Assembly (NCBI RefSeq): GCF_032118995.1
Contig: NC_092648.1
Coordinates: 2,805,001 to 2,869,000, forward strand
DNA length: 64,000 nt
Source: Asterias amurensis
Taxonomy: Eukaryota; Echinodermata; Asteroidea; Forcipulatida; Asteriidae
Direction of reading: 5' to 3'
Below are positions 18,583 to 60,710 of this stretch, one piece after another. A model generated the notes under the pieces. The model did no database searches, was not told where the DNA came from, and saw only the letters and a program-made list of their open reading frames with translations. The translations under genes were made by a program, and so were the position numbers. Positions within the stretch are counted from its first letter, which is position 1, and each line of letters begins with the position of its first letter.

Positions 18583-18589
18583 CTTCACA

Positions 18590-19490
18590 GGTTGTTGGTG
18601 AAAACTGGTGACAGATCGACATAAATGTGGCTACATCAGGAAAGTTTACAAATGATCAAAAAGTAAATTATTTTTGTCCATTGCTCGTCATAATGCTCGC
18701 AGGAGGCATTACGTTAGTATGAATTGATGTGTTCAGATCTTCAGATGCAAGTTAGATGTATGTCCTTCATGAACAGTTCTCACTCTATCAGCTCGACAGA
18801 AGTTTTTTCAATCAAAGTGTTAAGTACAATCCTGCAATGATTCGTATTTTACAAAGTTACAGAGTCCGTGAATGAGTTGGGCGCACTCGTATTAAGGCTC
18901 CTCCTACGCCGTAGATTTAGTATCCGTTTACGGGTCGCTCCTCAGAAAGAACGGGTTCCTCAACAAAGTTCGGCAATGAGGAACTATGGTGCAAAGTTAT
19001 GTCACTTTTAGTATAGCTGCCAGTTTCAACTCTACGGTGTCAGCAAGATGCTTGGTGAATCTCTCCAATTTGATTAACTACAAGACAATTCATCGGATTT
19101 GAAGTTGCTACTATATGAAAGATGATAGGATTGCCTTGTGTACAATAACTGACACTGCTTTTTCACAATGCTATTTTACGATACATGCTAACTGCACAAA
19201 GTACAGTACATACTGTACATGGGGTCCATAAAATGTACATAGCATGTGTATTCATGCTATAAGCACCAAACACATAGCAGCCATGGTACACAAGGGGTAC
19301 CTTAATCCGCTGATAATAAAGCTATTCAAATTTGGTTTATTGAGCGCCTTGCCAACCGCTGTACCCCCTATAAACAAACTTACTCAACTGTGTATTTCGT
19401 TTCCGGGTTGTATTACCATAAAACCAAAACATGTTAAAAGATTGTGTCAAATGGATTGTTTGAAACGGTTATGATAATAATTACCTGTAC
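18590..19490. other. Upstream region of the GPCR gene
   Basis: It contains the 5' flank of the receptor gene. No clear TATA box on the minus strand and no repeat family was recognised. Confidence 0.4.
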
Positions 19491-19854: not shown

Positions 19855-20110
19855 AGAGGCTCCGCTGTCGCATGCAATTATGTCCTCTATGCAATACTAT
19901 CCGGAGAACATTATTGCATATTCAATCGTGTCCGCCCGGACGCTGCTGCATAGTGCAATTGTGTCCGCGCTCGGACACATTTGCATATGCGGTTTTGTCC
20001 GCCCCCGTGCAAAACCGTCCTCGCAGTAAATTAAACGCCCTTGGTTATTAACGGAGCACGTTCGCCATTGTTTTACAAGCTAAGTGCATGTCATGCATGA
20101 CATGGGAATA
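19855..20110. repeat. TATGCAAT-rich palindromic repeat (family O)
   Basis: It starts with the 36-bp core also found at 15645 and 50850. Several variants follow of a unit with GTCCGCCCGGACGCTGCTGC and TTGCATATGCAAT-like palindromes, then CGCCCTTGGTTATTAACGG and the perfect 18-bp palindrome CATGTCATGCATGACATG. The words resemble POU/octamer sites. Function is unknown. Confidence 0.8.
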
Positions 20111-39997: not shown

Positions 39998-40400
39998 TGA
40001 CGTCACAATGGCCTTTGTGACGCACATCTGAATATTTACTAACAGTACAGCGCCTAGCAACTGCTCACAAAAGCATCAAGACGATTTATTCATGACATGT
40101 TGATTTCTAGAAGTTTCCTTTACCCTCTAATACTGTCAAAATAAGGCTTTTTCAACCCTAAGAGTAATGAAAATTTGGTTTTTAATCCAAGCAAAGCAAA
40201 GATAGGAAACAGGTCACCATTCAGTCCCGGAAATAAAGGCATAGCTGGTATATTGTAACCCGCTATTGGAGAACAAGAAACCGTTTTTTTTATTAATGAC
40301 ATCATGGTCATCGCTATTAATAGATGTGCCTGACTGCGACTGCGCAGCATTAGCTATGGGCAAATAGCGTTGTACTGCTGTAAGTACAAAATGTATATAA
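39998..40400 (+). promoter_or_regulatory. fos proximal promoter (CRE, TATA)
   Basis: An exact CRE TGACGTCA is at 39998-40005 and a TATA box TATATAA at 40394-40400. TCAGTT (40436-40441), an initiator-like sequence, and TGAGTCA (40443-40449), an AP-1 site, follow near the presumed start. In vertebrates c-fos is switched on by CRE, SRE and AP-1-like sites. No perfect CArG box (SRE core) was found in this stretch. Confidence 0.5.
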
Positions 40401-40671: not shown

Positions 40672-43600
40672 ATGTACCCTAACGTTACTGTAGCATCGAG
40701 CGACGTAACCAGCCTGATGAAGAATCTAAATGATGTCCTCACTACGATGTCTACAGGCATCATGCAAGGAGACGGTGAGGTAAGAAACAATGATACATCT
40801 CATGGAATCTCCATCTCATATAGCCCCATCAGTAGTAGTGCCATTACGCTGGACTCACGAAGCAGAGGGAGTCCAGCGTTTGGCACTAATTGGTGGGGCT
40901 ACATCTCATGGAGGAAGAACATCTTCCTTCATGATAAAGGGGCTTTAGGTATCCCTTTACTTGCATCACTGTTATTAATAGTAAGATGACTTACACCTCG
41001 AATGCATCCACTGTGTATATCTATCAATCAATCACCAATCTCGGGTCGTCGACCCTGAGTTTCTGGAAAAGGGGAAGCTAGGCTTGAGCCTTAAGCAGGA
41101 CATTAATGTCACACTCTTCCAACAGAATCATGTTAGATTCTCCACTTACTGGATACAGGCTCCACACGTGACTTTTTTTTGCGCAACTCTTTACAAAAAA
41201 AATGCTCATCTTCGGGTTAGTCAAAGTCATGCGCCTTCCGACCCGGATAGAAGGCATATCCCGTTTGGGATTAAGTCAATTTAGTCTCAGGTTGAAGAGG
41301 GGCCCCTCTCCAATTAGTTTGTGTTCTGGGTTGAAAAGTTTTGCGGCTTGGCGCTTTCAAAGCATTTTGGCACAGGACCCCACCGAGTGCGTGTTATAAC
41401 CCTGGACAACTGTTGTTAAACTTTTGCGGTCGCATTGCTGGGATTTCAATTTTGGGGCAAGTTTCACTTTTTGTTTCAAATTAATTGTTGGGACTCGGGC
41501 AGTCAGTCAGTATGTACCCGACATCGGCCAAACTTGTTAAAGTTGAAGCGGTAAGTTGATTTCTACTCAACCAACTTCAAAAAATTTCTTCTTTTTGTTT
41601 AACCGACTCGCATCCAGTTCTCCTCTTGTCAATGAATTTGTGATAATAAATTGTGTGTTTTGTTTATTTTGATTCAGGATTACACAGCATCTGATGATAT
41701 CATGGACATTTCAAGCTATGCCCCACCACCAATGACCAGCTCACCCCACCCGATGAGCACACACCAACATGCCATCCCAACCTCAGTGATCACACCAACT
41801 TCACTGACGAGTGGATGGTTGCCCCATCTCAACAACAACATCCACGGGGGTAACTTTGTCCCACCAACGGTGTCTTCGAACTCTCACTCCCCCGTCGCTA
41901 ACAGGATCCAAAACTCAAGGAATGTCCACCCGGGAAGGGGGATGGTTGTCAGAACGGCTGCCGACTTGGACATGCTCAGGATGTCCCCTTCCACTTCAAG
42001 GAGACGAATCAGAGATGAGGAGGTAATGTATTTTCTTTCATTTCATTGTTATAAAAAAATCTATATTTTTTGGAAAAAGATTCGTATCCTACCACCATTT
42101 TGTCATTCATTGTGAAATCAGTTGGTATCTAATTTACTAAAATTCGATTTTTTTTTTGTTTTTTGAGTCAAAAAGTTGTTAAAAGTGGTGGCAGGATACG
42201 AAAATCTTTTTCAATATTTGTGATGAGGATTGCAGTGTGGTTTAGATAGGATATCAGAATATTGAGAAAAGGAAGTGGACAGCAAAGTTTTGAACACTTC
42301 CGCCCGGAAGAAGGGCACACCATTGTTTTGTGTTGTTAGCCTTTTTTCGGCACACACTTCTTTTGTATGTCGGCCTTCCTCATTCGTCGGTTTCCGGTTA
42401 ACAAAGTCAAATCCTATAAGTGGTTTCCAGGAATTTGAGTTGACTCTTGGTTTTAAGGTTTAAAAAAGGGGGGAGAATGGGTGTATGCGTGGGCGGAATG
42501 GCCCCATATGAAACGCCTCAAAACTGACACTTCCATTTTATTGTTAAGTCATCGTGATATATAGAGGGCAATGTGTAATTAGATCGGAGGCCATTTTCTT
42601 GGAAACATACCATTCGTTCTCTTTACACCGTGTAGTCAACGATGCCTTGGTATTTCGCAAAGACACAAGTCACAACATGCTAAAGGTTTTTTTAAACTGC
42701 TTTAATATAAACGGAAGCCATTTCTCCTCTGGAGTTAAGCCAAACTTTATTAAAACCTTCCTTGCGATGAATCACGTTCAAATCCAGGGTTCCTTTATGG
42801 GTTCAGAAATCTCTCTGATAGAATTTTCTAAAGTGATGACTTGATTTTGAGGAGGAAATACTTAATCAGAAAATGTGGACAGCTTGGCGGTAAAGTAGTA
42901 ACGAATAATCATAGCGTCTACTACAACTCAATGGGTTGTAGCATGGCTTTAGCAAATCCTTGCTCTATGGTTTTTAGAAAAAAAGTGAAAAAAACACCCA
43001 GAGGCCAACTATAAAACCCCATTGTTCAAAATGCCGATTTTACGCAGGACAATAGCGGCTTAAGTTTCAGCAAGGCTGAATGGCTTTAGTGTTTTGGTGT
43101 ACACAAGGCATCAGTTGTATTCAGGGAAAACAAGTTCTGGTAAAAACAAACTGGAATCCTTCAGTGGACTATGGCCAGGGTCAATATTGGGTGAAGATTT
43201 ACGCTGGTACACACATTACATAGGGCTCTGTACGTAGTGCCTCCTTGGTTCTAGCTCTATGGTTGCACGTATTCAAAATGTTGTCTGTTGTTAGCCTTTG
43301 CGTACACTTTAATCTCATTTCACGATAACAAAATACAACTGCGTCAGAAATGTACAGGGTTGATGTATATCTCTACAGACTGTACACGACTGAAGGTCAA
43401 ACTATCGTATTGTGACCATGTTGACATACAGGGGTTATACTGGTTGCAACCAGCATTGTTGGGTTTAGTGCATGCTGTGAATAGAGGGCTAGAATTTCCA
43501 CATCATTATACACGCACAGAGACAGAGAGCGCATACGTGGAATTTCTGCATTGGAAACTCGCGTTATATCATCATGGAGGTATAATAGTCTAGTATTTGA

Positions 43601-44769
43601 TGTGTAGCTTAAGAAGGAATATTGCCTCCAAGAAAGACTGTATTCTTGCCTTAAACATAATACAGTTCTGGCGAAATTGACAAACAACACCGTGGCTCAT
43701 TTGTAACGTAAAGTATATGGTGACGGTTTGGTATGTCGACAGAACGCCCATTGACCGAGCACAGATGGTGTGTACGCATAGTGCATAGCGTATGCTACGG
43801 TGTGGGGTTAGAGTCGTGGATATTGCTCTCAAAATGGCCGCCGTTTAATCTTGACTGCATAATTAATGTTTTGTATCCCTTTGTTCTCCTTTTTTGAACG
43901 TGCAGTTGCCGCCAGATGAGAGAGACAAAAGACGTGTACGTCGTGAGAGAAACAAGTTAGCAGCTGCTAAATGCCGCCAGAGACGTGTGGACCATACCAA
44001 TACACTGATTGGGGTAAGTACAGTGTTACATTATGGGTGGGTTACAAAACAACAACAGCACGAACCTTTATTTTGCACGAAATCATTACGACTGTGATGA
44101 TTTTGGTTTGATAATGAAGTATTTGAAAGAAACGCCAGGATTGTTTATTTGGATAACCCGGACATGATTTTTTTAGCATAAGAACATGTTATCTTTGTTT
44201 AAAATATACATAAAAATTGATATTTCTTTGGTGTAAGCAAGTACAGTTGGTTGTCTTTGAAGAAAAGTGTGTAAATTCATTAGTTGTGTCAAACATGATC
44301 ATAAACGAGCCGAATTTAGTGAGGAACTCAAGGCATTTAAGTTCATCTTCAAATGGGGATTTACATTTATTTTATGAGCATATTTTAATGTATTTTTTAC
44401 CAATTTTGATTTCAGGAAACCGAAGATTGGGAGGAAAAGAACGCCACTTTGGAGCAAGAAATCTCAAAACTGCACCAACAGAAAGAACAACTGGAGTTCA
44501 TACTGGAAGCCCATAAGGCCATGTGCCGACAGAACAAAGCCAACAAACAGACTGCCACCACCTCCACAGCAACATCAACTTGCAGTTTGGAAACCCCTAC
44601 AAATGAAGTGGTCACGCCCACCAGCGTCTTCAATTACTCCGTGGCGAATGGGATGCAAAATGGCGAGTCGGGCGAAGCCATGAGCTGTGGGAGGGAAGCG
44701 ATTAAATCAGAGAGCAGCGGTAGTGACATTTCGAGTCCGGATTCAAACAGGACTCTTATTCAACTGTGA
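40672..44769 (+). CDS. fos: Fos-family bZIP transcription factor, four coding exons
   Basis: Exons: 40672-40779, 41678-42022, 43906-44013 and 44416-44769 (TGA 44767-44769), all phase 0, giving 304 aa. Fos proteins bind AP-1 sites as heterodimers with Jun in the nucleus. The basic region [19 protein letters not shown] lies at about 160-178. The zipper positions are Leu185, Trp192, Leu199, Leu206 and Leu213, followed by EFILEAHK, a Fos signature. Exon 3 is 108 nt, as in vertebrate FOS, and exon 2 begins with Asp-aromatic as there. Ser/Thr/Pro-rich flanks lie on both sides. The C-terminus ends in [12 protein letters not shown], echoing the SSPTLLAL end of c-Fos. Unusual is the Trp at the second zipper position. 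An alternative first exon lies at 41512-41550. ATF3/JDP2 follows 13 kb downstream on the same strand. Confidence 0.93.
40821..40901. repeat. Hairpin in fos intron 1
   Basis: TAGCCCCATC...AGTGCCATTACGCTGGACTC pairs with GAGTCCAGCGTTTGGCACTA...TGGTGGGGCTA around a 12-nt loop, giving arms of about 35 nt with few mismatches. Confidence 0.75.
41512..41550 (+). CDS. fos: Alternative first coding exon of fos
   Basis: ATG at 41512 opens [13 protein letters not shown] up to GCG|GTAAGTTG, phase 0, so it joins exon 2 at 41678 in frame and gives a 281-aa form. It starts MYP like exon 1a (MYPNVTVAS...). VKVE fits the SUMO acceptor pattern (hydrophobic-K-x-E). An alternative promoter just upstream is implied, with TTATAA near 41394 as the only TATA-like word. 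Which exon is used, or whether both are, cannot be told from sequence. Confidence 0.55.
42023..43905 (+). other. fos intron 2
   Basis: GTAATG to GAACGTGCAG. No repeat family or nested gene was recognised. Confidence 0.85.
44014..44415 (+). other. fos intron 3
   Basis: GTAAGT to TGATTTCAG. It separates the basic region from most of the zipper, as in vertebrate FOS. Confidence 0.9.
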
Positions 44770-45023
44770 GAAGATGGAACCGTGACAATTAGAGACTTTT
44801 TTTATTTAAAGGCAGACAGCAGACTATACATTTCGTTATGAGGAATATTTGTAATTTTGCTCAGAAAACCTGTAAAAAACGCTGTGATATTGCAAAAGAG
44901 GAAAATATTCATGATGTTATCATTATTAGGCAAGTGTATTCAGGAGGAAGTAGAAACAACTTCCATTTGAAAACGGAATCATGATATACTTAGTGTCATT
45001 CTTGAATTTAGCATCGGATTGAA

Positions 45024-45231
45024 GTGCTAAAAAATACTGAGAGCTCTAGCCAAAGTGCTAAAATACACGAAGCTAAAGCCTAAAGTGTTAAAATACACAT
45101 AGCTAAAGCCAAAGTGCTAAAATGCTCAGAGCTATAGCCTAAAGTGCTGAAATACATAGAGCTAAAGCCTTGAGTGCTAAAATACACAGAACTAAATCCT
45201 AAGTGCTAAAATACTCAGAGAAAAGGCTAAA
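45024..45231 (+). repeat. 30-bp tandem repeat in the fos 3' region, seven units
   Basis: Units read about GTGCTAAAATACACAGAG plus CTAAAGCCTAAA with point differences. The array starts 255 nt after the stop codon, so it would be part of the mRNA. Confidence 0.9.
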
Positions 45232-46489
45232 GTGCTTTTACACTTATACAATACTCAGAGCCAGACCAACACAATATCATGATCGTAAAGCTATCAACTC
45301 TAAAGAAGTAATTCGTTGTACCAAATTAAATGTAATAATATTTAACTTATTGACAAATGAATGTCACAGCATTGCCTTCATATTTCATTCCAGAACGAAC
45401 TAAACAAGTAGAATGGTGTTACAAAGTGTAATAACAGAAACCATATAAGGTTTCTAGTCGAACTAAATAAATATAGGTGCAATAATATTTATAATAATTG
45501 ATGACTAAACTTATTTGTTGGAAGCAGAAGTATCCCTCTGTGGAATTTTCTCAAAAAACACAAAAACACCAGTGCCAGTATCATACGACCATTATTTTTT
45601 TCTTACTTAAGCCTATTTCAACATTTGTTAGTGTATATGTTTATAATTATCTAAGACTGCATGGTAATGTTAATACCAAGGTTTGCAGATGACAATTCGC
45701 AACAAGTTACTGGGTTACATTTTGCTAAAATGCCATCAATCTATGCGAGAACCATTCATTTCTCTAAGCCGTCGAAATGCTTGGTTTTCCCCACGCATTG
45801 TTTCGGATTGACACGGTGAGGTAATAATGGTCCTCGGACTTGGTCAATGTGAGTCAGACTTCAACGTCTTACTCATCGGCAGAGAACAAGAAAGTTTATT
45901 TGCGGGGACACTTTCACCGACCTGGGGAAAAGTGATGTTAGATTCTCAGTAATTAATCTGACCTTTAAAGAATAATGTTGAGTCATCCTTCTTCAACACA
46001 ATTGCATTCAGACTAGCGAGTGAGAAAAGTTTTTATTTTTAGAACGAGAAATTATTCTGACTGAATTTCTGTCATGCTGCTCAATTCTTTCTCTACATGT
46101 AAAGCCATCGAAGGCCTTGGATTTTTATCATCATCGTTTTTTATTATAATCATTTGATAATCGTTACAAAAAACCACAACACACACACTGAAATATTGCA
46201 GAATTGCCTTACTTGTTTTGCCGAATCAAGGCAGGTTTTGGCTCTTGAAAAACCATGGGGGGATTTGTTATTAGCTTCGTAATGTTTGCCGTTTTGGGGG
46301 TAATTTTTCAACACTTTATAATGCCAAGTTTGTACATTACAATGTCTCATACCACTGCCAACTTTACGACTGTTTTATGTGTATTTTTTAATTTGTTCGT
46401 TTCATATTTTTCGATTACGATAAATTATTTTTTCATAAAAAACAAACGTGACGCCTCTGCGTGGCGTCCAAGAAGTTACGTCATCAAAG

Positions 46490-46514
46490 ATATTTATTTA
46501 TATTTATTTATTTT
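46490..46514 (+). promoter_or_regulatory. AU-rich element, overlapping AUUUA motifs
   Basis: TATTTATTTATATTTATTTA is a class II type AU-rich element. Such elements speed decay of early-response mRNAs such as c-fos. It acts on fos only if the transcript extends to the distal poly(A) signal. Confidence 0.5.
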
Positions 46515-47198
46515 GTAAATACCGTTAAAGTGTCCATGCATTTGTTGATTCGCATTTTGAGTGGATTTCATGTTTTATTCGTTAAGTAATACATGTATAT
46601 GTCAAATGTAGAATGATAAAATGAAGAAAATCAAAACTCGAGTAGTATTCGTACCAATTGTGATTGTGTCTGTCGAAACGTAGCATTGTGGACATCGTGT
46701 CTTTGTGAAGTCACTAATAACTCATTGTTTCAATGTTAAGTGTTTCGTTTTACTACAAACTTGTATCAAAGCCTATGCATTGTTCACTAAGATTTTTACC
46801 ACTGCCAGAAATACCTGTACCATTATTCTCTATCAAGAAGAAAAGAAAAAAAAAAAACATGTATAAAACAATGAGAAAAACCACTGACATATTTCAAATA
46901 CCAATGTAATTTTGCTCATTTTGAAATAATGTAACAAAAGAATCTGAGGTTGAAACATTGTAGGGTATCGTTTAATAAGCCATTATACAGTTGATGTTTT
47001 AAAGGTTTTTTCTTTCTTTTTTGGAAATAAATACCCGCAAAATTGCGGAGAATGAATGAAAAGTATGTGAGGAATTTTGTGATATCATTTGATTATTTTG
47101 TTGCGTAATATTTTTTTCTGGGAATTTGTGTTCAAGTAATGAAATACTTGACCCATTATTGGTATCGCGTTCATTATCACGTGCTGTACGTGTCAAAC

Positions 47199-47278
47199 AC
47201 ATGGTGGTACCTTTAAAAACGTGGTGGTGACGACATACACATGGTGGTACCTTTAAAAACGTGGTGGTGACGACATAC
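47199..47278 (+). repeat. Perfect 40-bp tandem duplication
   Basis: Two identical 40-bp units starting ACATGGTGGTACC and ending GACGACATAC. Perfect identity implies a recent origin. Confidence 0.97.
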
Positions 47279-47344
47279 CAGCAGAATAAATTGACCTTAT
47301 TTTTACTACCTCGTTAAGTAAGTCATACTTGAATCAAACGATGG

Positions 47345-47705
47345 GGGCCGATTCTATTTTTCTGCTTCACCGTAAGCAAACAAATTGGTGCTTACGGAGG
47401 GAATTCCGCGCTTACGTCAAGCGCATTTCACTTTAGCAGGGATTTGTTTTTTTAGTTAGCGTGCGTATTCCACGTAACTGGCTGTCTACGCTTACATTAC
47501 CTGCACACCCGTAGATGTAGATGCAGACAAGTAGATCGCATAGCAGTAATTGAAGTTCGATTTTCACTGCAAGGCAAATGGGTAGAAACTATCAATATTG
47601 TACAATATGAAGGCATGGAGTAAAACGAACAGTAAAGTAGAAATTCCCTGCTTCCGTAAGCGCCGATTTTCGGCTTACGGTAAGCAGAACCGTGACATTG
47701 GGCAC
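47345..47705. mobile_element. Foldback element with GCTTACGGTAAGC-type ends
   Basis: GGGGCCGATTCTATTTTTCT, CTGCTTCACCGTAAGC and GTGCTTACGGAGG on the left are mirrored by CTTCCGTAAGCGCCGATTTT and GGTAAGCAGAACCGTGAC on the right. MITE-like; frames crossing it are not genes. Confidence 0.6.
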
Positions 47706-47894
47706 AGGTGTAATAGTGGGGTTCATTACAGTAAGAAGCCAGTTTCTCTTGACAAAAGAACGGGCGTTGTCCGTCGGGCATTTGGTGCTCGATTCCGCCG
47801 CGTAACTGTGTCTTCATTTATTTTACTGTGGGTGGGCGCGGGGGGGGGGGGGGAGTATTTCGTGTATACAAGAGGGAAATAGTGTGCACATTAT

Positions 47895-48350
47895 GTCAGA
47901 TACCCTCTGTCAGATATCAAGGCATTGTAGATCGTGTGTAATGCGGGGGTAAGTACCGAAAGGAAACCCGTCTTAACAATAGAACATTTCGGGCGTGGTG
48001 AGGCATGTTGGTGCTATATTATGGGGGCATGGTGGTATACTTCCACACACTGTCTGCATTTACTTCGTTGGGGGATATAAAAGGAACAGAGTGGGTGAAC
48101 TTTTAAGGGGACACCCTCTATCCGATCAGGCATTGTAGATCGTGTGTAATGTTGGGGGTATTTAGCGAAATGAAACTAGTCTTAACAATAAAACTTTTCG
48201 GGCGTGGTGAGACATTTGGTGCTCGAAATGGATGCATGGTGGTACCCCCCGTGTGTCTTCAATGACTTCACTTTTCTGGGAATCTCATTAATTATTTTGA
48301 GGCTATTTAAGGATACTTTTGTTCAAGAGGAAAAGAGTGGGGACATTTTA
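47895..48350 (+). repeat. Diverged tandem duplication, about 215-bp unit
   Basis: Both units contain AGGCATTGTAGATCGTGTGT, AGTCTTAACAATA or CGTCTTAACAATA, and TTTCGGGCGTGGTGAG. Related GGGGACA...CACCCTCT words recur near 26.4, 52.0 and 52.5 kb. Confidence 0.75.
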
Positions 48351-48359
48351 GGTTTTTTT

Positions 48360-48930
48360 TTTGTTTTTTTTTGGGGGGGGGGACATCCTTTGCTTGTCTA
48401 GATTCATACAAAATTGGGTTTCGTTTTAGCTGCGGTATTTTTGCAGTCAATTTCGTTTTTTCGTGTACGATTTCGTTCTTCCATTCTGGTTAATTTTATT
48501 TTTAGTCATTCTATTTCACTTATAGGCACTTAAGAATAAATGTTCACGATTCTTCAGTTGAACTTCGAAACAAATATAGGTAGTATAACAAGCAACAGCG
48601 GTCATTTTGAAAACACTTTGATATAAACTCATACTCTACATAATATGTTTGTTTTTTTTTAATTCAGGGGCCGGGAGTCTACAATGCACTCTTTCTCGTG
48701 TCATACTCTGACGTTGTCCCAATTCCATGCTCGTATCATCAAATTCTACAAGTCCCCAAAATAATTCCCCTTTCTGACATGAACATAATTAAAAGAGAAA
48801 CTCAATATCAACAGAAAAAGCAAAATAATGATTCTTCAATTCTCCAAATCAACAAGTTTGTTTCAATATTGCAGTGTCCTTAACAGTGTTTTAGCATTAG
48901 TATTGAATCAGGCGAAATAGGGAAAGACAA
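48360..48930. other. No feature seen apart from a G tract
   Basis: G10 at 48373-48382. The rest is T-rich spacer. Confidence 0.4.
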
Positions 48931-48936
48931 AGCTCA

Positions 48937-48990
48937 GGGCGGGGGCGGGGGGCGGGGAGCGGTGCACCGGCAACCACCGCGGTGGTTGCC
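48937..48990. other. G-quadruplex motif next to a perfect 22-bp palindrome
   Basis: GGGCGGGGGCGGGGGGCGGGG meets the four-run quadruplex pattern with one-base loops. It is followed, 11 nt on, by GGCAACCACCGCGGTGGTTG plus CC (48969-48990), a perfect palindrome without loop. Confidence 0.8.
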
Positions 48991-48999
48991 AGTGACATC

Positions 49000-50600
49000 G
49001 GGGTGCTCTAACTGATCTTCCCAACTTTATAATGAAGGATAGACAAGAATGGGCAAATCTCAACATGATTCCGACCTCAGTCAACTAGAGAGAAAGAGAG
49101 AGATTGAAACCGACAAAGTGCATTCGGGACATATTGAATTGAGTGCATGTTTTAGCCTTGAACTTGACATTGAGTGTGGGCTGAGCGTCAAGGTCGCCTA
49201 GTGGTGGGTGGTTATATAGGTATCTACGGCATGCCCGTACTGGGTGTCCAATTCACTGGGTCTATGACCGTGGGTGGACTCAGTGCCGTAGTGGGCGCAC
49301 CCCGGGGCGAAGGTAAATACCCCGGTAGGAGTGGGTGGGGTTTTGTTGGTGTGTTTTGTATCCCTATTATGTTCCATTGTTGGAAGCCCAGCTGTTGGGC
49401 TCAAGGTGATGTGGTGGGCGGGTAGCGAGTCATATTATGATACCACCGGTGCCGTGGAGTGATTTCACGGGGAGCTAGGTTCCTGCTAAACTTGATTCAA
49501 GTCCCGTTCTCGTGCGAGAGGTCCTGAAGCATATCCGCCCGTCAAAATGTAGCGAATGTGGTCCCGGTTTGGGGAGTTTTTTAATGATAAGGCGATGGAT
49601 GGGACTGAAAATAAACAGGATTTGGACTTGAGTCAAGTCTAGGTTCCTACCCTGCTAGGATTTCCAGAAAAAAGGGAACAGTGTTTGAACATGGAAGTAA
49701 TTCCTACCTCCATGGTTGAAGGAGAGGAAGAGGCGATTACCTTGATTAGGGATGTAGGAGCACTTCCTATGGTAGTCATAGGGTATTTTCGAAAGCACGG
49801 CTCAGGTTTGAGCCTGACTGCAGCTTGGGCTCTTTCCGCCTGTTTGAATCCAAAGGAAAACCTAAGCCACAGACAGGCTCAAACGACCACAGTTTGCCTT
49901 GCCATGCCCGCAAGGACTTATGAGGACGTACAAAGAAACAAGTTGCGTTCTTAGTTGGTTGGGCGGGGCAAAGAAATTGATTTAGGGGGGTTACTCTAAG
50001 ATTTTTGAGCAACGTACAAGACAAACACATACCATGGACCTACGTACATTATACTGCAAAATAAACAGTCTTAATTAATCACCATACATGTTATTCTCAA
50101 AACAGTGTTTTGAAACTGACCAGACTTGCTATGTGGCCAGAAAAAATCCAATGGGTTCTTTTTCTATCGATATTTTGAGGGGTTGGGTAAGGCTACAAAT
50201 GAAAGATGCTTTCATATATCAGTTCCAGTGTTAGATGGTGATGCGTCAGATCAGGTAACCTAGTTTATCCAAGAACATTTCCCCAAATAATGACTTCATG
50301 ATGCTATGACGAATACTTCACTGTGGGCAAAGAGGCTGACTTCATCAGCTAAAATCCATTATTTTACAGGCGAGCAAAAAAACACTACATCGTTCTCAAC
50401 TCATTGACCTGCATTTTGTGTGTAGAGATTGAGTCTTAGTGTATTTTAAACCGATGACGTTATGTACGGTTGCCCCTCTTCAGACACCCATTGACTGAGT
50501 CATGGACAAGTTCACTGACTTTTACTTTGCCAACGGTAGATGGCGCTGTTGAATATTATCACAAAGCGATGTGTAATTGAAAAACTTGTCGTACGTTAAT
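49000..50600. other. Spacer without recognised gene
   Basis: An open frame at 49691-49954 begins with ATG but has no family resemblance or splice partners. Nothing else stands out. Confidence 0.4.
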
Positions 50601-50603
50601 ATA

Positions 50604-50640
50604 ATGGGTGCGTTCGTTTAGCTTCCCTGGGTCGACCTCG
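50604..50640. mobile_element. MITE end, GTTCGTTTAGCTTCCC family, copy 1
   Basis: GGGTGCGTTCGTTTAGCTTC then CCTGGGTCGACC. It matches 51602-51640 directly and 51500-51532 in reverse. Confidence 0.65.
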
Positions 50641-50844
50641 GTCTGGCCCGGTACGTTCGAATAGCTTCGACGGGGCTCACCTTGGTTAGACTGGGCCCCT
50701 GTCTGATATCATCTGATACGTGCAGTGACATAGATGCCCAAATAAGCACTGCTCTCAAGTCCGCAATGGAATTTGACTGCGTATCTATGTGAAATGATCG
50801 AGGTCAGAGGTCAAACTACACGCCGAATTTCCTTTTTTTAAAGG

Positions 50845-51310
50845 CCGGAGTCGCATGCAATTATGTCCTCTATGCAATACTATCCGGAGGATAGTATTGC
50901 ATATGCAATAATGTTCGCCGGACGGTTTTGCATATGCAATCGTGTCCGCCCGGACGCTGCTGCATAATGCAATTGTGTCCGCCCGGACACATTTGCATAT
51001 GCAGTTGTGTCCACCCCCGTGCAAAACCGTCCTTGCAGTAAATTAAACGCCCTTTTTTACAAGCTTAGTGCATGTCGAATGACATGGGAAATGTTCCGCC
51101 CGTGTGGTATTCACTGCAACCATAAAATACGTGAATATTATTCATGCTGAATATAATTTGTTGGTTCAGTGCATTCACGAGCACATACACTACACGTACA
51201 GTTATGTGCCTGTCCGCCGGACGGTTTTTGCATAGCCCCGGACACGATTGCAATGCAAAAGTTTCCGGAGCGGACAGTATTGCATGGCGGACACAATTGC
51301 ATCTGACACC
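50845..51310. repeat. TATGCAAT-rich palindromic repeat (family O), longest copy
   Basis: It starts with the 36-bp core (50850-50885) and continues with GGATAGTATTGCATATGCAA, GTCCGCCCGGACGC, TTTGCATATGCA and AAATTAAACGCCCTT, as at 19855-20110. A second, inverted part follows at 51200-51310. It is immediately followed by the TCTCTGGCGTTATTCACG segment also seen near 20940. Confidence 0.8.
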
Positions 51311-51439
51311 GGTCTCTGGCGTTATTCACGAGCCTCGAAGAATGACGTCTGACGTTCAGGCTACACCTGGGTCAGCCCCCAGTGCCCTGCATGTGGAGTG
51401 GGTCACTTGGGGGTGACCTGAGGTGCATACCGTCACCAC

Positions 51440-51535
51440 GAGAGGGCGAGTGTGATCGTTCGTTTAGCTCTTGTCATGGGCTCACCCGAGTGAGTACAGA
51501 CCCAGGGAAGCTAAACGAACGCACCCATTGCATTG
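51440..51535. mobile_element. Short MITE with GTTCGTTTAGCT ends
   Basis: ATCGTTCGTTTAGCTC on the left and GGGAAGCTAAACGAACGCACC on the right form inverted ends of an element of about 90 bp. Part of the same family as 50604 and 51602. Confidence 0.65.
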
Positions 51536-51601
51536 TGTTCCAATGTGTTCTCAAAATCTCTGGAAGAGTTTAGGAAGTACAAGAGGATGGGGTGTGTTAC
51601 A

Positions 51602-51640
51602 GTGGGTGCTTTCGTTTAGCTTCCCTGGGTCGACCCCGGT
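51602..51640. mobile_element. MITE end, GTTCGTTTAGCTTCCC family, copy 3
   Basis: GTGGGTGCTTTCGTTTAGCT then TCCCTGGGTCGACCCCGG. Only one end is present. Confidence 0.6.
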
Positions 51641-51644
51641 GTGT

Positions 51645-53520
51645 TTCAAATGTATACTCCTCCCCAGAGAGAAGAAACATGTGCCAATTAATTTGTGACT
51701 TGGTGTGTGTTTAAAATGTGTTAATAATTATTGTGTGCTTGTAACCCCAGTTTAGAGGATTAGGTACTTCAGTACAAGAGGAAAATATATACATGTAGTG
51801 TTAAAGTGTCAAAGTGTTTCCATTTTGTGGAACTTTGTAAAGTATTTAGTTTTTGTCGCGCGGAATTCTTTAGTCTTTTCAGTTTGCGGATAGTTGGTCA
51901 GGCAGCCCGTGGTCCGTTTTAAGTTGTGTTGTGCTCCGCGTAGTAAAAGTTCGTTTATTGTTCTGGGGGGTCGAGGTTCAGAGAATTCCATATTTGGTCA
52001 TGATATTTGGTTTGGGTTTTGTGAATGGGCACATTATGAACATGGTATGGGGACATTTTGAGGGGAGGGGACTGCATGGTACCTCCCCCCCGGGCATAAA
52101 ATCATTAAGTACGAGTGACCAATTGCGTTTACTTTGTTACTGACCCTTCATGACCTCATTCCTACCCCCCCCCCCTCTCTCTCCCTCTCTTCAATTTTGC
52201 CTCAGTGACAAAAACCTACAGTACAGTGTCAAAGCTACAAATAAGGTGTTGGGCGCTTGAAAGACACAGGGTTGTTCATGGACTAGTTGGGATCTGTGGG
52301 TGTGATGTCGAGTGTGCTCCTCGACTGACAATCTTAAAGAAGGGCCTACGTAAAAATGGGCACATTTGTTACCCTGGCTCTATCATTTTCAAAGGTATAC
52401 GTCTCCCTATGTGCTGATTTGTGGCATGGTGTATGTACCCCCTACCTATTGTTTTCAGTTGTGTTCATTGTACGTGTGCTTACAATTTCAGTTGTAGGTA
52501 CTTCAACAGGAATCTGTTAAAGTATGGGAACATTTCGAGGGTTAGGGGTCTGGCACCCTCTCCCCCATCCCGGGCATAATTCGAAAAGCATCGAGTACAT
52601 GACCGGTTGCTTCGTTACGTGACCCCTTCTTGTATAACGGCACTCCCCCTCCCTCTCTCTTTCGTAGCCTATTAAATAGACTAATTTTTTTTTAAATACA
52701 ATTTTGCACCAAGTGACAAAACCTACAAACCTACAGTTAATTGTCAAAGCCTACCGTCAACTAAAAGCGGCCGCTGCTCTCTACACGGCACCGGTTGTTT
52801 TGTCAGAGCAGCAATTTGTTAAGAGCGCCCTCTAACGTTGCGAATGACACAGCTCATTGTGCTATGCATTAACAAAGCAGCGATGCGTCACCCGATACCC
52901 TAACAATGACGTCATGCATCTATTCTAAGCAACGCCTACCTTTGAATGGGTTTGTCGTGGGTTCTGATTCACCCCTTATATAAATCATTATCAGGGAAAA
53001 ATGAGTCACAAGATTTCAAAGGCAACCTTTTTAAAGGAAAGTTTTCATAACTGTCGCTTTTAATTCTATGTCCCGCAATTATTGCAACCGCTTGTTATCA
53101 AACAATTATAAAAGCTTACCTATGGAAAAGATGATGAAATGTTTGGAAAAACCAAACTTTCTCAATTTCAGACGAATCGACCACCAGCAACCTTTTATTA
53201 CTTCTCAATACAAATTCTTTCCGATACAACTCATACCATGACTGCATTTTCTTTTTAATAAAATAGAAAGTAATTGTCTACTGCACTTTTTAATTGCAGT
53301 GATTCCGAAGGAAAAAAAAAACGAAGGGTTTTACAATGCACTAGATAAATGATAAAAATAATTATACTGGCCTACCTCTGGTTTAAAAAATAAACCGAAC
53401 CTTTCAAACAATCTGTGAAACTTTATGAAACTTTATTTAGTTGGAATCCACTTCTAGTCAACTTGTCTTTGTTCAACCCGACATCATTTAAAATTTACCC
53501 GGTCAGTTATAATGAAAGAG
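51645..53520. other. Spacer with diverged repeats, no gene
   Basis: 51950-52120 and 52490-52640 share words such as GGGGACATTTTGAGG or GGGAACATTTCGAGG and CCCGGGCATAA. A CRE is at 52907-52914. No coding exon was recognised. Confidence 0.4.
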
Positions 53521-53523
53521 TAG

Positions 53524-53600
53524 GGGTTAACTCTGGTGTGTCTGGTCCAGGAAGCACCAATGTTTACAGGTTTCCTCAGGCTTGTAAGCTAAGCTAGTGA
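53524..53600. repeat. Repeat fragment paired with an inverted copy at 55.6 kb
   Basis: GTTAACTCTGGTGTGTCTGG and GTTTACAGGTTTCCTCAGGC match, in reverse, GCCTGAGGAAACTTGTAAAC and CCAGAAACACCAGTGTTAA at 55630-55690. Confidence 0.65.
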
Positions 53601-54230
53601 TTAATTCAGTTATGAGGCATCCTTAGTTTTCATTACCAGAAATATATAATAATAAGTTAAGGGGAAAATTGCATGTTCAATCATTCTCCCATGAAAAATA
53701 AAAGAATTCATATTACAAGAGAGTCCACTGAGTTTGACACAGTTTCTATACTGACATACACTTCTACTGGGGTCGAGCTACTATTATATGACACGCTACC
53801 CCGGTGTCCATATATAGCCCCATTCGGTGTGACTTCGACAGCGCAGTCTGCACCCAAGGCCAACAGTCTACTTTGGCCAATGTTTGTAAACAAAAGTCGA
53901 GGTGGAGTGGATTCGAAACATCTCAAAATAAACTGTGACGTCATCTCACTCCTTTTCTCCGGTCACAACATTATTTTATACATCAGTTCGAAATTGAACT
54001 ATCCCTCTAAACCGGGATCCTATTATTTATGTCTAACCATTTGTACCTAAAGAAACTTTGGGAGCAGCCTCATCAGTGTGACGTCATAAAAACTTGATGA
54101 ACGATCAGCTGTCTTTGAATCATTCAACAATGACAATATTTTATCATTTTCAGAGTATTGTGTTTTTGTCTTGCCCTCCTGGTCTTGTGTTCCTATGTTT
54201 TCCTATGTTGTAGTTTTAGTTTTTTTTAAA

Positions 54231-54618
54231 CTCACTAGACACATTGGTAATTGTCACAGACCAGTCTTCTCACTTGGTGTATCTCAACATAATATGTACA
54301 AAATAACAAACCTGTGAAAATTTGAACTGAATATTATTGATCGTCGAAGTTGTGAGATAATAACGGAAGAAAAAACACCATTGGCGCACAGGTTGTGTGC
54401 CTTCATGCTTGATTTTGAGACCTCACGCGTGAGGTCTCGAAATCAATTTTTAAAAAATTACTGAGAAATTTCTCCTTTCTCAAATACTATACTTCCGAGG
54501 GAGCCCAGCCGCATCTCGCAATGGTTCATACTATCAACATCTGTCCATTGCTCGTTACCGAATAAGTTTTTATGCTAACAATTATTTTGAGTAACTACCG
54601 AAAGTGTCCAGTGCCCTG
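54231..54618 (-). mobile_element. M1 MITE, degraded full-length copy
   Basis: A reverse-orientation copy running from CTAGACACATTGGTAATTGT to GAAAGTGTCCAGTGCCCT, preceded by TTAA. The ends have diverged. Confidence 0.75.
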
Positions 54619-54893
54619 AAGTGGCCTCAAAGATACTGGTCGAGGATATAACGCAATGTTATAGGCATATCTGGTCATTATAAAATGCATAAATAAAAAC
54701 TTGTTATTATTATCTGCACTATCGTATCAGCCAACTAGCTGTGTCATCGTTGTGTTAACTTGATCCATGACTTGATAAAGTCATCTTCCATCAGCCGCCC
54801 CCCCCCCACCCCCACCAACCCCTCCCTTCCATACCCAAATAAAGGCTTGTCCCAGCCTTAAACCAAACAATAGACACTCCCAATATCTAGGGA

Positions 54894-54958
54894 TGACTCA
54901 TTAATATTCATGAGCACACAAGGGCAGACATACAAAACAACCTCACTGAGCATAAAAG
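54894..54958 (+). promoter_or_regulatory. Candidate promoter of the ATF3/JDP2-type gene (AP-1 site, TATA-like)
   Basis: TGACTCA, the AP-1 consensus, is at 54894-54900 and ATAAAAG at 54952-54958. A second TATA-like word (TATTTATAG, about 55022) follows a TGATGTCA ATF-type variant. Vertebrate ATF3 is induced through AP-1/ATF sites. Assignment to this gene is by position and strand only. Confidence 0.4.
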
Positions 54959-54984
54959 CCTGGATTGGTCATCAACCTACACGT

Positions 54985-55491
54985 CGGCAAAATTGGCGAG
55001 CGCCATGTTGATGATGTCATGACTATTTATAGCTCTTACTTTACCTTTCAAGCGCATGGCGCAATTATTTGTTGTTATCAATATTGTTATCAACAGTGGT
55101 TTGTTATTGAAGAAGTCCTGACTGGTCTGGACACGCTCAAAATTCAATCCTTTAGAGTTTTGAACCCTCTTTGGAATTCCCCCAATTGGAAACTGATCAG
55201 CTGACAGTTTCTGGGAGCTATACAAAATATTTCAACATCTGTCATAGTTTACATCATCAAAAGACACCAGTGGAACAACAGTCATCTTATAGAGTAGGCT
55301 AGCTCCAACTATAAGAAAAGAGGTATACGGGTGTGTGTTTCACAGGGTGTTGTTGCGAAGTTCTACTGCAAAGTTCTACGGTGCAACTTCCGTATTTTGC
55401 TGAGCTGCGTTCAAATGAAAGCATAACGTCCTGAACTCATGTGATACAAACCCGGATTCAACAGGAATCTTTATCCTGAACTCAATCGCTG
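54985..55491 (+). other. Candidate 5' UTR exon of the ATF3/JDP2-type gene
   Basis: The segment ends ATCGCTG|GTAAGTTTG. If joined to 58162, an in-frame TGA at 55477-55479 sets 58204 as the first usable ATG. Short upstream frames (ATGTGA at 55439; ATG AAA GCA TAA slightly earlier) are present. Confidence 0.3.
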
Positions 55492-55611
55492 GTAAGTTTG
55501 CTGATTTTTTTTAAATCTTGTTTGAGAAATGTTTTTCATATTGGTTCTGATCTATTGGTTAAAAAAATTGTTATTACTATTATACTTAAACGTTTCTAGT
55601 AATTAAGCCAA

Positions 55612-55695
55612 TGATGCTTCACAAGCTAGCCTGAGGAAACTTGTAAACAAGGGTGAAATGTGAACCAGAAACACCAGTGTTAATTTCCATGATAA
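55612..55695. repeat. Repeat fragment, inverted copy of 53524-53600
   Basis: Contains CCTGAGGAAACTTGTAAACA then GGGTGAAATG, loosely like the CTGA...GAAAC layout of Penelope-type tails. Confidence 0.6.
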
Positions 55696-55699
55696 GTGT

Positions 55700-58161
55700 T
55701 CTTTTTACACGTAATTACGTGTCAAACCTAGTGCACTTGACCTCCGGCAAATGTTTCCTACAAGACATATTTTGGGGCTGAACTGAGCCCAAAGCTGTGT
55801 CCACTCGCTGATAAAAAATATTTTAGTCGGACAAAATTCGAAAATATCTGGCAACGTAAATGAATGAATTATTTTTAAGACCCGAAATAATCAGCCACAC
55901 AAACATAAATTACACATTTAAGTGTATTTGATATTCCTTTCGAAACGTTCCTCAGACGTGTATAAAATCGTTCGAAGAAAAAAATCGATAATTATAATTT
56001 GGACGAAAATCAGGCAATACTTTACTACGTTTGTTGCAAAAAGTGTTACGTATGGACAGTCGCTGTAGAAAAAAACTCACCTTTTGGGGTGACTGCTGGG
56101 AAAAAATAGTCTATATTCCCGCTCGGTTTCAGTTTGTAAAACGTCAAGTTTTCTGTGTCGGCCTACTTATGGTTTGGAAGTCACTGATGATGAAACGAGG
56201 GAGTCTTTTGAATATTAAACGAAATTTCTAGAAGCTGAATCGTTCGGCTGATGCAACTCTGATAAATTTGCCTACCTTCTTGAGCAGTATATTGAATGTT
56301 TATAGTGTCCTTTCACACGAGGTAGAGTTGGTAAAACTTTGACAACCATGCTAACATTATACAAGGGACCCTTGTTAGATTGCGTCGTGTGAAAAGGGTT
56401 TTTGTTCCACAATAAGAAGTGTTATACCGAGTAATCTAAGACAATGTGGAATTGCATTTTTTGGAACAGACTCAACATGAGTTTAAAGATATCTGTCTTA
56501 CTGCATACATTTAGAAGAAAATTAAAACATCATCTTTCTGTTGGCCTTCGAGAAAGACTCTGTAAGAGCCGAAACCTCAGGCTATTATTTACTATTTTAT
56601 ATTATGTTTTTATTTGTAATGAACTCATGTCAACCTTCTTCACCTAGTCTCTGCTGCCATCCTGTACTCTATTTTCGGTAAAAAAATGTTTGTGTTTTGG
56701 ACTCTAGTTTTGTCTGTCCAGTTCTGTCTGTCTAATAGGGAAAACCTCAAAAGCAAATCTGAGCTTCTTTCTTTCCCTATGTATACGGACAGGATGTATA
56801 CATACATTAACACAATGGTATGTACAACGTAATATCAATCTGAACAGGTATAATGATGTACATTGTGCATGTACTGTTTAGTGTTCAATACAATTAAGGA
56901 CAATGTAAACAAAATGGTTTTTATTCGATTGCGAGTCATTGCAAACATTGGTCGAAAGAAAATTCTAGAAAACCATATCGCTGATGTAACACTGACGATT
57001 GGTGTCTTTTTTAATTTGGAATATTGTTAAAAAGCGCCAATTCATCGTTTATTTTGCGTTCTGTTTGCATCATCATTGCGTGAATCATAATGAACTGTCG
57101 AGTGGCATATAGGCATTGTATTTATATAGAGCATGAACTACACGTTATAGAATATGGAATACTGTCCAACAAACAATGACGTAATGTTTTGATTGTATTT
57201 CACCATGCGTGCATGCACGCACGCATACATAAGCGCATGGGACGTGGAATAGGGTTGACAGAATCGGAAAAGCATCGCATACGACCATACGACCGCAAAC
57301 CAGACCTAAATTGCATGATGTTGACTTCAAATATTTGAAAAAAAGTGGTAAGTTCTGGATGATCAATGAATGGTCAAGTTAAAAATAATTTCTTTCCTTT
57401 TTGAAAATATAAAAAAATATTGTAAGAAAACTCACGCATGGGAGTCAGCACGGGGTCAAATCAACGCGCAAGAGAAATGCGCATGGACAATGTCTTTACA
57501 AAATGATGTTTCGACCTGATGTTTCGACCCTAGCAGAGTCTTTCTCGAAGGCTAAATTAAAAGGGAGTGTGTGGAAAATGTTATGCCAATGCCATGATAA
57601 GCATCGTATCATAGGAATAATGTGTTTTTTCCGGTTTATTATTATTCAGTTATTTAAATTTATGTTGTGAAAGCTCTTTGAATATTTAAATGAATACGGT
57701 TCGGTTCACTGGTGATACTTGTTTGGTTGACAGTTAAAAAACATTAGGCTGTAACTTCTCCGGATCATTTTAAATCAAGGAGCGCATGAACGCTACTTAT
57801 TAAAACATTATGCTAATTTATTCAGATATTCACATGACTTAATTAATACATGTCTTACAATTTTGTCCCGAGATTATCTTGGGCATTTCTTGTATTATAG
57901 GCCTACTTCAAAGGAAGAGTAAACTCATGAAATTATTGTATTCCTGTAACATAATTAAATAAAACTCATGTTGTCACACTCCAATGTTTATGGCTGTTAT
58001 TTTTAAATAGTTTTTATTTTATGTAAAGTCAACCCTTCGATTCGACAGGGACCCCCCCCCCCCCCCCGCCCAGCCCCACTCAAATATGCAAGGTGTTCAC
58101 TGCATGTTTCTTTACATAAATAACTGTAATATTCCTCTCGTCTTTCTTTTTGTCGTTGCAG
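55700..58161. other. Probable intron 1 of the ATF3/JDP2-type gene
   Basis: It contains a segment at 57505-57560 related to the hairpin at 91-188 and a C16 tract (58052-58067). A frame at 56444-56647 vaguely resembles the C-terminal end of LINE pol (LHTFRRKLKHHL) but is too short to call. Confidence 0.4.
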
Positions 58162-58203
58162 ATTTTCCATCAAGTTTATTTTGTCAACGAAAATAAGAAA
58201 GCA

Positions 58204-60710
58204 ATGCTAACTGGAACGATGTCTACAAATGGCGCGACGCAGCAACAGGGTGCCCTTTACGGGGGCGGGGCCTCACCGATGTCCAGCGAGTTTAGTGGGG
58301 ACGGGGTCTTCGAGCCGGAGTTTGAGCTCACCCCTCTGATAAAAGAAGAGCTCCGCACCACAATACGCAACCGGAGAATCAACAGCGGCAAATCGGACGA
58401 CTTGAGCTACGATGACGGTCCTAAACCACAGTACAAGGTGAATATTGATTGTGTGCCAAGCCCGATAGTTTTATAAATTTGTGCATTCGTTCCAAACTGA
58501 TGTACATTTGTATTTTGAGTTCACTTGTAAAAAGTAAAGCTTGGACAAATGGACTCACACAGGGAAAACTTCACAATTAAAGAAACATAATAAGTAAAAG
58601 TTAATGAATTAAAAACAAAATATGACTGTTTCTTTTTAAACGACTGTGCCCCTGAGTCTATATATTCAAAATATCTCTGAATGAATATTCATTACGGTAT
58701 TTTAGATACGATACTTCATTATCAATCTCTGAGCTTAGACGGATCAATATAAACAGGCAACATTGTAATAACATGTCAAACATTTTATTCAAACAAGTTT
58801 TTATTTGTTCCTCCTTAATTTCAGCTGACCCCCGAAGAAGAGGAGAAGCGAGAATTGAGACGGGATCGCAACCGTGTAGCTGCCGCTAAGTGTCGCATCA
58901 AAAGGAAGACAGAAGTCTGTTGTTTAACAATGGTGAGATTCTAAACACACTTTCATTTCCCGATTTGGTTAAAACATCTCTGCATGTGGTAAATTTATTA
59001 CAGTATTAATTTGTTAGACTTGCCAGTTACAGAAGCCATTTTGACTTAGTTCCCGCGCGATTACCCATTTTTCTGTAATTGCTTTGATTTTGTTCTGTCC
59101 TGAAGACAACCAGAGCTTACCGATCGAAACGTCGAGATGTTGCCTAATTACTCCTATGGATAAATCGCGCAATGGTGTTACCGCAAATATTACAAAGACT
59201 GTACCTCCACCATGAACAGATTTTAAATCATACTCCCATACATTATCCTACTGATAACCTAACTTAATGTGTCTACACCATGCAAAGGTTCAAATCCTTA
59301 TCAAAAGTGTGTTGATGTGTTTTATGTCGTTCATGAATAATGACCGTCGTTGCATCGAGACACCTCGTTTTGAAACAGGTCTCGTGCTCAATTCTTTTCT
59401 TCTGAGAAGTATTTTCCATAAAAAAAAACAATACACGACCTCAGAACTTCATTGTCCCACTAAACGGATAGATTATATGATTGTGTGACGTCACTTATCA
59501 CGCACGAGCCATGCGTTTACCAGGCACTTCCGTTTCAAAAGGATACGTTGAGCGTAAACAAATTGGAATCATGTGATTTTGTTTGTTCCTCAATTTCACT
59601 CGTCGATGTGTCAATTCATATTGATAAGTTTTGCTTGAAGTCATGTGATGAAGCATTGGGTTGGGGGGGGGGGAGGGGTTGGCTGTCTACCAGTGGCTTA
59701 TTATCGTTATTATTTCAAGGTACCCGTTTCCCATCCCATTGTAAGCTCTACTTGTTTATCAGTGCCAATAATGAAAGTGACATTTGCAGGCTGTTTCTGG
59801 TTGCCTATTGCATTATATACAAAACAGTGAACATGCGTCCGTTAAAGTAACACGTTGCAACTCCGTGGACAAATTGTACTCACAGGCAGGCCTTGCTTCA
59901 CGGAGGCAGCGAGTGCTTCCATGCCTCCTGGTCATTGCCTTGGTGTCATATCAGTAGAAATGTAAAATTTACCCATCTACAGGGTGCCCTTTACCGAGGA
60001 GAAAATGCCCAGGTGCACTTTCTATTTCAAAAACGACAGAGTCCTCAGTATGAGTGGGAAAAATTACATACATTCAACCTCACATTACAATGGTTTACAC
60101 TATTGTCACTATCAATACCCTTCCAGTGTGAGATTTGTCAATATCACCCCATGACATCGTGTTGGTCTTAACGTGGGTCTGTGCATTTCTTGTAAGGGGA
60201 ATTGTTGGTTCGTTCCCGACTTTTTTTCAGAGCGAAATTTGAAACATGGCGTCACTGGGTTTCAACAACCAATGGTTCTTTCCATTCCAAAGAGGAATTT
60301 TCCGTCCGTCAAATTAGGTTAACTGTTCAAGGCACCGTTCTGATTGAATACGTCAGAAACGCGTCAGAAATAATGTCAGAAACGCGTGTCTGGTAAAGCA
60401 ACACCAATGAGAGCCCCCTACGTTCAGAACTGAAGCAATTTTATCAATGGAATTTTCCTATACTTATAGTGTTGTTTCCAGACGTTTTTATTCATGTCTG
60501 ACTCATTCTTTTCATGCACAGGAATCTGAGCGACTGCAGTTGACCAATGAGAGACTCCGTGAGGAGATCCAGAGACTCAAGGATGAAAAGAGAGTCATTC
60601 TAGAACTGATTAATTCACATCGGCCATCTTGTATTGTTACACCACCGATCAATGTCCCGGATGTCCAGATGGCGCAGGCTACGTCATCGTCCTACGACTC
60701 GGTCAGGTGA
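58204..60710 (+). CDS. atf3: ATF3/JDP2-type bZIP transcription factor, three coding exons
   Basis: Coding exons: 58204-58437 (exon begins 58162 after CGTTGCAG), 58825-58932 and 60522-60710 (TGA 60708-60710), all phase 0, 176 aa; a start at 58219 would give 171. ATF3 and JDP2 bind CRE/AP-1 sites as homodimers or with Jun and mostly repress. TPLIKEELRTTIRNRR (43-58) matches the TPFVKEELRFAIQN block of ATF3; IKEE fits the SUMO pattern. The basic region RRDRNRVAAAKCRIKRK spans 90-106; zipper positions are Leu112, Leu119, Leu126, Leu133 and Ile140. HRPSCIV (147-153) is the family signature after the zipper. The junction before ESERL is the same as in human ATF3. It is probably the single ancestor-type gene of vertebrate ATF3 and JDP2. 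fos lies upstream on the same strand. Confidence 0.92.
58438..58824 (+). other. ATF3/JDP2-type gene intron
   Basis: GTGAAT to TTAATTTCAG. No internal feature was recognised. Confidence 0.85.
58933..60521 (+). other. ATF3/JDP2-type gene intron splitting basic region and zipper
   Basis: GTGAGA to CATGCACAG. It contains a tail-like segment CTGAAGACAACCAGAGC then GATCGAAACGTCGAG at 59100-59140, a CRE at 59486-59493 and a G11 tract at 59663-59673. Confidence 0.85.

Follow-up and report, generated by a model that had tools for sequence, protein, structure and literature searches.

A 64,000-nucleotide stretch of the genome of the sea star Asterias amurensis (C1:2805001–2869000; hereafter the window, in whose numbering positions without a contig prefix are given) was found to carry two genes encoding basic leucine zipper (bZIP) proteins, a Fos gene and an ATF3/JDP2-type gene designated g2 (Table 1). 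The complete Fos gene lies at 40672–44769 on the + strand, and its four coding exons, joined in phase, encode a protein of 304 residues which scored 36.3 bits against Pfam bZIP_1 (cut-off, 27.6). When the bZIP was compared with solved structures, FosB and c-Fos were the closest matches (E values of 1e-17 to 1.7e-10), followed by JunD as the next family (4.7e-4), and the five top raw scores of the protein were those of the five Fos-family sequences. Judged from its basic region and zipper, this gene is a Fos-type bZIP gene of the FOS family.

The g2 gene, located at 58204–60710 on the + strand, has three coding exons which join in phase and encode 176 residues, and its protein also exceeded the Pfam bZIP_1 cut-off (41.2 bits). 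Its matches to solved structures were at the superfamily level only (FosB, E = 3e-6), the structures listed as matches of Fos, g2 and the g4 gene described below having included no ATF3, JDP2 or BATF chain. The raw BLOSUM scores of g2 were highest for human ATF3 (203), followed by g5, a further sea-star gene described below (187), JDP2 (184) and the best Fos-family sequences (157). Its first exon carries FELTPLIKEELR, which we take to resemble the KEEL-type motif at the N-terminus of human ATF3. On these sequence grounds, g2 is classed as an ATF3/JDP2-type gene.

The two genes are arranged head-to-tail, and the distance from the Fos stop codon to the g2 start codon is 13.4 kb. The original prediction, which was made from the sequence of the window alone, was thus right both in recognising and delimiting a Fos and an ATF3/JDP2 gene here, from the Fos start codon to the g2 stop codon, and in placing them head-to-tail on the same strand about 14 kb apart. 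When 155 kb were scanned for codon usage, with a training set of only four coding stretches, the interval between the two genes gave only one frame, on the minus strand and with a low score (C1:2854219–2854431; score, 14.5). A repeat unit of ca. 32 bases occurs at 19914–20004 and again at 50871–51016, the latter lying between Fos and g2.

The probability that two named genes lie within 14 kb of each other by chance in the genome searched (491.5 Mb, 23 contigs) is approximately 6e-5 (28 kb/491.5 Mb), and the proper alternative to ancient adjacency is tandem duplication rather than chance. That the adjacency of Fos and g2 is an assembly error is very improbable: while Hi-C scaffold joins can misplace pieces, the assembly report describes PacBio HiFi reads with a contig N50 of 8.05 Mb before Hi-C scaffolding (PMC10625585), which far exceeds the 49-kb array described below, and the window contains no N.

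Same-strand bZIP genes beyond the window

A third gene, g3 (C1:2869674–2873314, +), was located by a Pfam bZIP search, and g4 (C1:2888496–2895073, +) and g5 (ca. C1:3183.5–3185.8 kb, − strand) were then located by a search with g3. Fos, g2, g3 and g4 lie in this order on one strand across 49 kb, and g5 lies about 0.29 Mb further along, inverted relative to the array. The g3 gene was initially read as BATF, a reading dropped once an exon carrying FELRPLIKEELR was found upstream of its bZIP. Because this exon has the ATF3 motif, g3 is read as a second ATF3-type gene, its first exon having been read by eye. A PLIKEELR-type pattern matched g2 and g3 only in 155 kb and had no match in 30 simulated stretches. 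The raw scores of g3 did not discriminate (JDP2, 136; FOSB, 135; FOSL2, 135), and its bZIP is highly divergent. The g5 gene carries MLREELR upstream of its bZIP and scored 193 with human ATF3, 192 with JDP2 and 187 with FOSB; by our reading of its sequence, it is a probable third ATF3-type gene. A KEEL-type N-terminal motif like that of human ATF3 is present in g2, g3 and g5. The single ATF3/JDP2-type gene that had been predicted is therefore the only one in the window, but by this reading one of three in the genome. The exons of g4 joined in phase to give 285 residues with a long, glutamine- and histidine-rich tail.

All five genes (Fos and g2 to g5) have the basic region in one 108-nt (36-codon) exon with AG/GT flanks, in frame at both ends, and their zipper exons aligned without gaps up to the final H...C. 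No exon break at that point was seen in the bZIP loci that were read on contigs other than C1, three loci (L001, L008 and L036) being outside this check. This common 36-codon exon marks the genes of the array as products of duplication. A genome search with g3 recovered g2, g5, Fos and g4 at E values of 0.03 to 3; the search with g4 recovered g5, Fos and g2, that with g2 recovered g5, Fos, g3 and g4, and that with Fos recovered g5 and g2. Four of the five genes served as queries here, and all of them recovered array members on C1, often weakly per exon. The remaining matches were bZIP exons elsewhere, among them that of a Jun-like gene on C13, whose open frame spans 333 residues. Since the genome-wide searches scored the best candidates only, exon by exon, a divergent copy of the array could have escaped detection.

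These genes probably represent an old tandem array of the Fos/ATF3/BATF bZIP superfamily on one sea-star chromosome, which would have arisen by head-to-tail duplication before the deuterostome ancestor. A single ancestral gene would have been the source, and Fos, the two ATF3/JDP2-type genes and the Fos/BATF-class gene would have kept this order on one strand since then.

Phylogenetic tests and the identity of g4

In a first tree (17 sequences, 74 columns; a gapped ATF2-like sequence of this genome was excluded from both scoring and tree building), the window Fos together with the human and fly Fos sequences was split from all others (support, 82; Shimodaira–Hasegawa-like approximate likelihood ratio test, 96.9), and g2 was placed with ATF3/JDP2 (clade support, 64). 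Ten groupings were then evaluated by approximately unbiased (AU) tests under a mixture model, with p values uncorrected. The Fos clade (p = 0.442), the grouping of ATF3/JDP2 with g2 (p = 0.467) or with g2, g3 and g5 (p = 0.407), and that of g2 with g3 (p = 0.321) were not rejected. Holding all five sea-star genes together cost 12.4 log-likelihood units (p = 0.0375, one of the ten uncorrected tests), and a sea-star-only origin of all five appears to be weakly rejected on this alignment.

This result bears on the alternative that the genes arose by a recent, echinoderm-only tandem expansion and resemble the human FOS-JDP2-BATF order by coincidence. Such an expansion would fit the one exon type and the one chromosome common to all five genes, g3 and g5 show that duplication occurred here, and a joint origin of Fos and g2 alone was left unrejected (cost, 10.8; p = 0.061). 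However, Fos is far closer to the solved c-Fos and FosB than to the next family, its five top raw scores are all from the Fos family, grouping the five genes carries the cost given above, and the chromosome is shared by all five of the families tested from the human region, as described below; hence, we regard a recent expansion as improbable.

The old array that we favour has several points to contend with besides the unrejected grouping of Fos with g2. In the first tree, g3, which has a very long branch, was joined to Jun (support, 68), likely by a long-branch effect. Under the mixture model, 12 of the 14 inner branches were open and the Fos sequences needed two changes, and the grouping of g2 with BATF was not rejected (p = 0.392). 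The reference sequences used for human ATF3, JDP2 and BATF and for fly Kay were provisional. Besides, the predicted cluster was not kept intact, g5 having been found apart from the array and in the opposite orientation.

The fourth gene of the array determines how much of the human trio may be shared. The first tree placed g4 with BATF with a support of only 33. In the AU tests, its groupings with BATF (p = 0.415), with FOS (p = 0.289) and with the ATF3s (p = 0.256) were not rejected, and holding it with BATF was the cheapest choice, at 0.86 log units, as compared with 2.01 for the ATF3 group and 2.74 for FOS. When human BATF was used as the query, 17 matches were obtained; the two g4 exons (22.3 and 22.0 bits) ranked sixth and seventh, and an exon on C11 (30.4 bits), presumably ATF4-like, ranked first. 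The two g4 scores, when summed, exceed that of this top single exon, the second match crossing two stop codons before the exon. No ATF3-type motif was found in g4 by pattern and no Fos N-terminal sequence by eye. While these observations favour BATF, it is quite possible that Fos and ATF3 are ancient neighbours, with g4 being another Fos-like gene or an orphan rather than BATF, so that the pair and not the trio would be conserved with vertebrates. The closest solved match of g4 is c-Fos (50.7 bits, among structures that held no ATF3, JDP2 or BATF competitors), its raw pair scores with g5 (184) and human FOS (180) are higher than that with BATF (149), its grouping with FOS was unrejected, and five exons elsewhere outscored its exons in the BATF search. 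Its long glutamine- and histidine-rich tail is also unlike vertebrate BATF proteins, which are short. The basic region of g4 reads AAARCR and thus lacks AAQ(K/R)SR, which we take to be the form in vertebrate BATFs; the latter may be derived at this site. We therefore class g4 as Fos/BATF-class, with BATF favoured by position and weakly by sequence, a choice that 74 residues cannot decide.

Candidate regulatory sites and other features of the window

The full cyclic AMP response element (CRE; TGACGTCA) occurs 17 times in 155 kb, as compared with 1.3 in simulations. Seven of them are found in the 5-kb upstream regions of the array genes (Fos, 3; g2, 2; g3, 2; g4, 0), one of those of g3 being 233 bp upstream of its start codon beside a TATA-like stretch. 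This number was higher than the 1.25 expected from control loci (Poisson P = 3e-4) and the 1.48 expected from the rest of the 155 kb (P = 9e-4). CArG boxes numbered 22 vs 14.7 expected. Shared control is opposed by the lack of a CRE in the 5 kb upstream of g4 and by AP-1 sites being at expectation (22 vs 22.0); moreover, the test was post hoc, and its control, taken mostly from the vicinity of other bZIP exons, was small (5 sites in 79.9 kb). Since the CRE word is common in the control loci too, the excess is only suggestive, and shared CRE control of the array is put forward as a fair hypothesis. The palindromes TAGGCCTA (14 vs 1.0 expected) and TACATGTA (27 vs 3.8) are also over-represented in C1:2765001–2920000.

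Each gene is predicted to encode a DNA-binding basic region and a leucine zipper, and since the bZIP domains score above the Pfam cut-off, dimerisation and DNA binding are expected. Partnership with Jun is established for Fos generally. The products would most likely form AP-1/ATF dimers, chiefly with the Jun-like product of the C13 gene, and these dimers may bind AP-1 and CRE sites as stress- and growth-induced early regulators. The CREs in front of three array genes (Fos, g2 and g3) could then place the array under common and partly self-regulating control, and this may be among the reasons why the genes have stayed together. A further, tentative proposal is that a complete Fos-ATF3-BATF array under shared CRE control was already present in the deuterostome or even the bilaterian ancestor, that sea stars and vertebrates kept its order and strand through shared regulatory DNA, and that vertebrates multiplied the whole block. 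On this proposal, the AP-1/ATF system would be an ancient cluster of co-regulated genes rather than a scatter of related ones.

Table 1. Coding exons of Fos and g2 and putative CREs in the window
Feature	Position	Strand	Remarks
Full CRE (TGACGTCA)	39998..40005		674 bp upstream of Fos start codon, near ATTGG (CCAAT) box; putative control site
Fos coding exon 1	40672..40779	+	ATG, 36 codons, ends in phase 0; GT donor, in-phase join to exon 2; start codon by our reading
Fos coding exon 2, N-terminal region	41678..42022	+	AG/GT sites, in-phase joining
Fos coding exon 3, basic region	43906..44013	+	Exactly 36 codons, 108 nt, phase 0 at both ends; bZIP matches
Fos coding exon 4, leucine zipper and C-terminus	44416..44769	+	Stop at 44767–44769
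Two full CREs	53936 and 54079 (53936..54086)		ca. 4.1–4.3 kb upstream of g2 start codon; putative control sites
g2 coding exon 1, motif FELTPLIKEELR	58204..58437	+	Start codon by our reading
g2 coding exon 2, basic region	58825..58932	+	Exactly 36 codons; starts and ends in phase 0
g2 coding exon 3, leucine zipper ending HRPSCIV	60522..60710	+	Stop at 60708–60710

Elsewhere in the window, an unbroken frame of 464 residues at 17236–18630 (−) reads as a rhodopsin-type G protein-coupled receptor (7tm_1, 115.3 bits) whose third loop is long and rich in lysine and serine, and its top solved matches (best 60 of 373) were spread across opsins and muscarinic and adenosine receptors. A frame of 302 residues at 11086–11994 (−) resembles a disrupted RNase H region of a retrotransposon and gave no Pfam match up to an E value of 0.1. 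Telomere-like repeats of the TAACCC type are found at 3846–3948 and 4276–4322, in a chromosome-internal position ca. 2.8 Mb into the contig. Tandem arrays with a unit of 105–106 bases occupy 5131–7936, the block at 5131–5450 being opposite in orientation to the block from 5771. Rfam at gathering scores gave no match within the window.

Comparison with the human FOS region and known bZIP families

We take the human order at 14q24.3 to be FOS, JDP2 and BATF, all on one strand, and the sea-star order matches it if g4 is BATF. Five families which we take to lie near human FOS or its duplicate region were searched for in the sea-star genome, and the results for all five are given here. Vasohibin was located at C1:3.61 Mb (5 matches), Prospero at C1:34.2 Mb (3 matches), IFT43 at C1:9.50 Mb (2 matches, one containing a stop), SNW at C1:10.3 Mb (4 matches, one containing a stop) and LIN52 at C1:15.4 Mb (a single match of 34.9 bits). 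All five are on C1, which makes up 7.7% of the genome, with no matches on other contigs, a distribution with a probability of approximately 3e-6 under independent placement. The reading of an old, conserved array is weakened here by the thin basis for LIN52, by the human order being a presumed one, and by the distances of 0.7 to 31 Mb, which indicate a shared ancestral chromosome and not a conserved neighbourhood; Vasohibin, at 0.7 Mb, is perhaps an exception in belonging to a conserved neighbourhood. As for the ancestral, deuterostome-or-older bZIP cluster of the original prediction, the gene identities, the tandem orientation, the two further same-strand genes, the 36-codon exon and the five of five families on C1 speak for it, and its single copy and its intactness did not hold up.

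The likeness to the human neighbourhood suggests that the arrangement is very old, a suggestion based on the presumed human order and one echinoderm genome. Published phylogeny is in keeping with such an age. Jindrich and Degnan (2016, PMC4736632) place the divergence of the FOS and ATF3 families on the bilaterian stem and note FOS gene pairs in cnidarians; a FOS–ATF3 split on that stem makes the pair older than the sea-star lineage. The terms synten, tandem, linked and BATF do not occur in the main text of that paper as available, nor do synten, tandem, BATF and JDP2 in the available text of a Ciona AP-1 paper (PMC8369891) or JDP2 and bZIP in that of a hemichordate chromosome paper (PMC11175523). 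Among the matches listed from the open-licence literature, there was no printed report of Fos–ATF3 linkage. We conclude that an old tandem array was probably retained in a sea star, as a further example of conserved gene clusters.

Should the array be ancestral, Fos, ATF3/JDP2 and perhaps BATF, which are partners and rivals of Jun, would have started as one tandem block, and their linkage in vertebrates would be a relic rather than a coincidence of genome duplication. Orthology could then be tested by position in cases that the short bZIP sequence leaves undecided, above all that of BATF, and the shared regulation of early-response genes would be testable in an animal that regenerates well.

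In comparison with the FOS family (c-Fos and FosB; PDB 2wt7 and 5vpa), the basic region and zipper of the sea-star Fos align with those of FosB without gaps, and the second zipper position (exon 4, 44416–44440) is tryptophan in the sea star vs leucine in FosB. In human FOS, the basic region presumably likewise lies in its own 36-codon exon. As for the ATF3/JDP2 family, PLIKEELR in g2 and g3 has its counterpart in MLREELR of g5, and the closest human sequence is ATF3 for g2 and, narrowly, for g5; the sea star has three copies by our reading, with the bZIP of g3 being very divergent. As in the presumed human FOS-JDP2-BATF neighbourhood, the sea-star array has Fos first, an ATF3/JDP2-type gene next and a further bZIP gene after it on one strand. 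It differs in having two ATF3/JDP2-type genes between Fos and the last gene and a third ATF3-type copy ca. 0.29 Mb off and inverted, and its last gene is a candidate BATF only.

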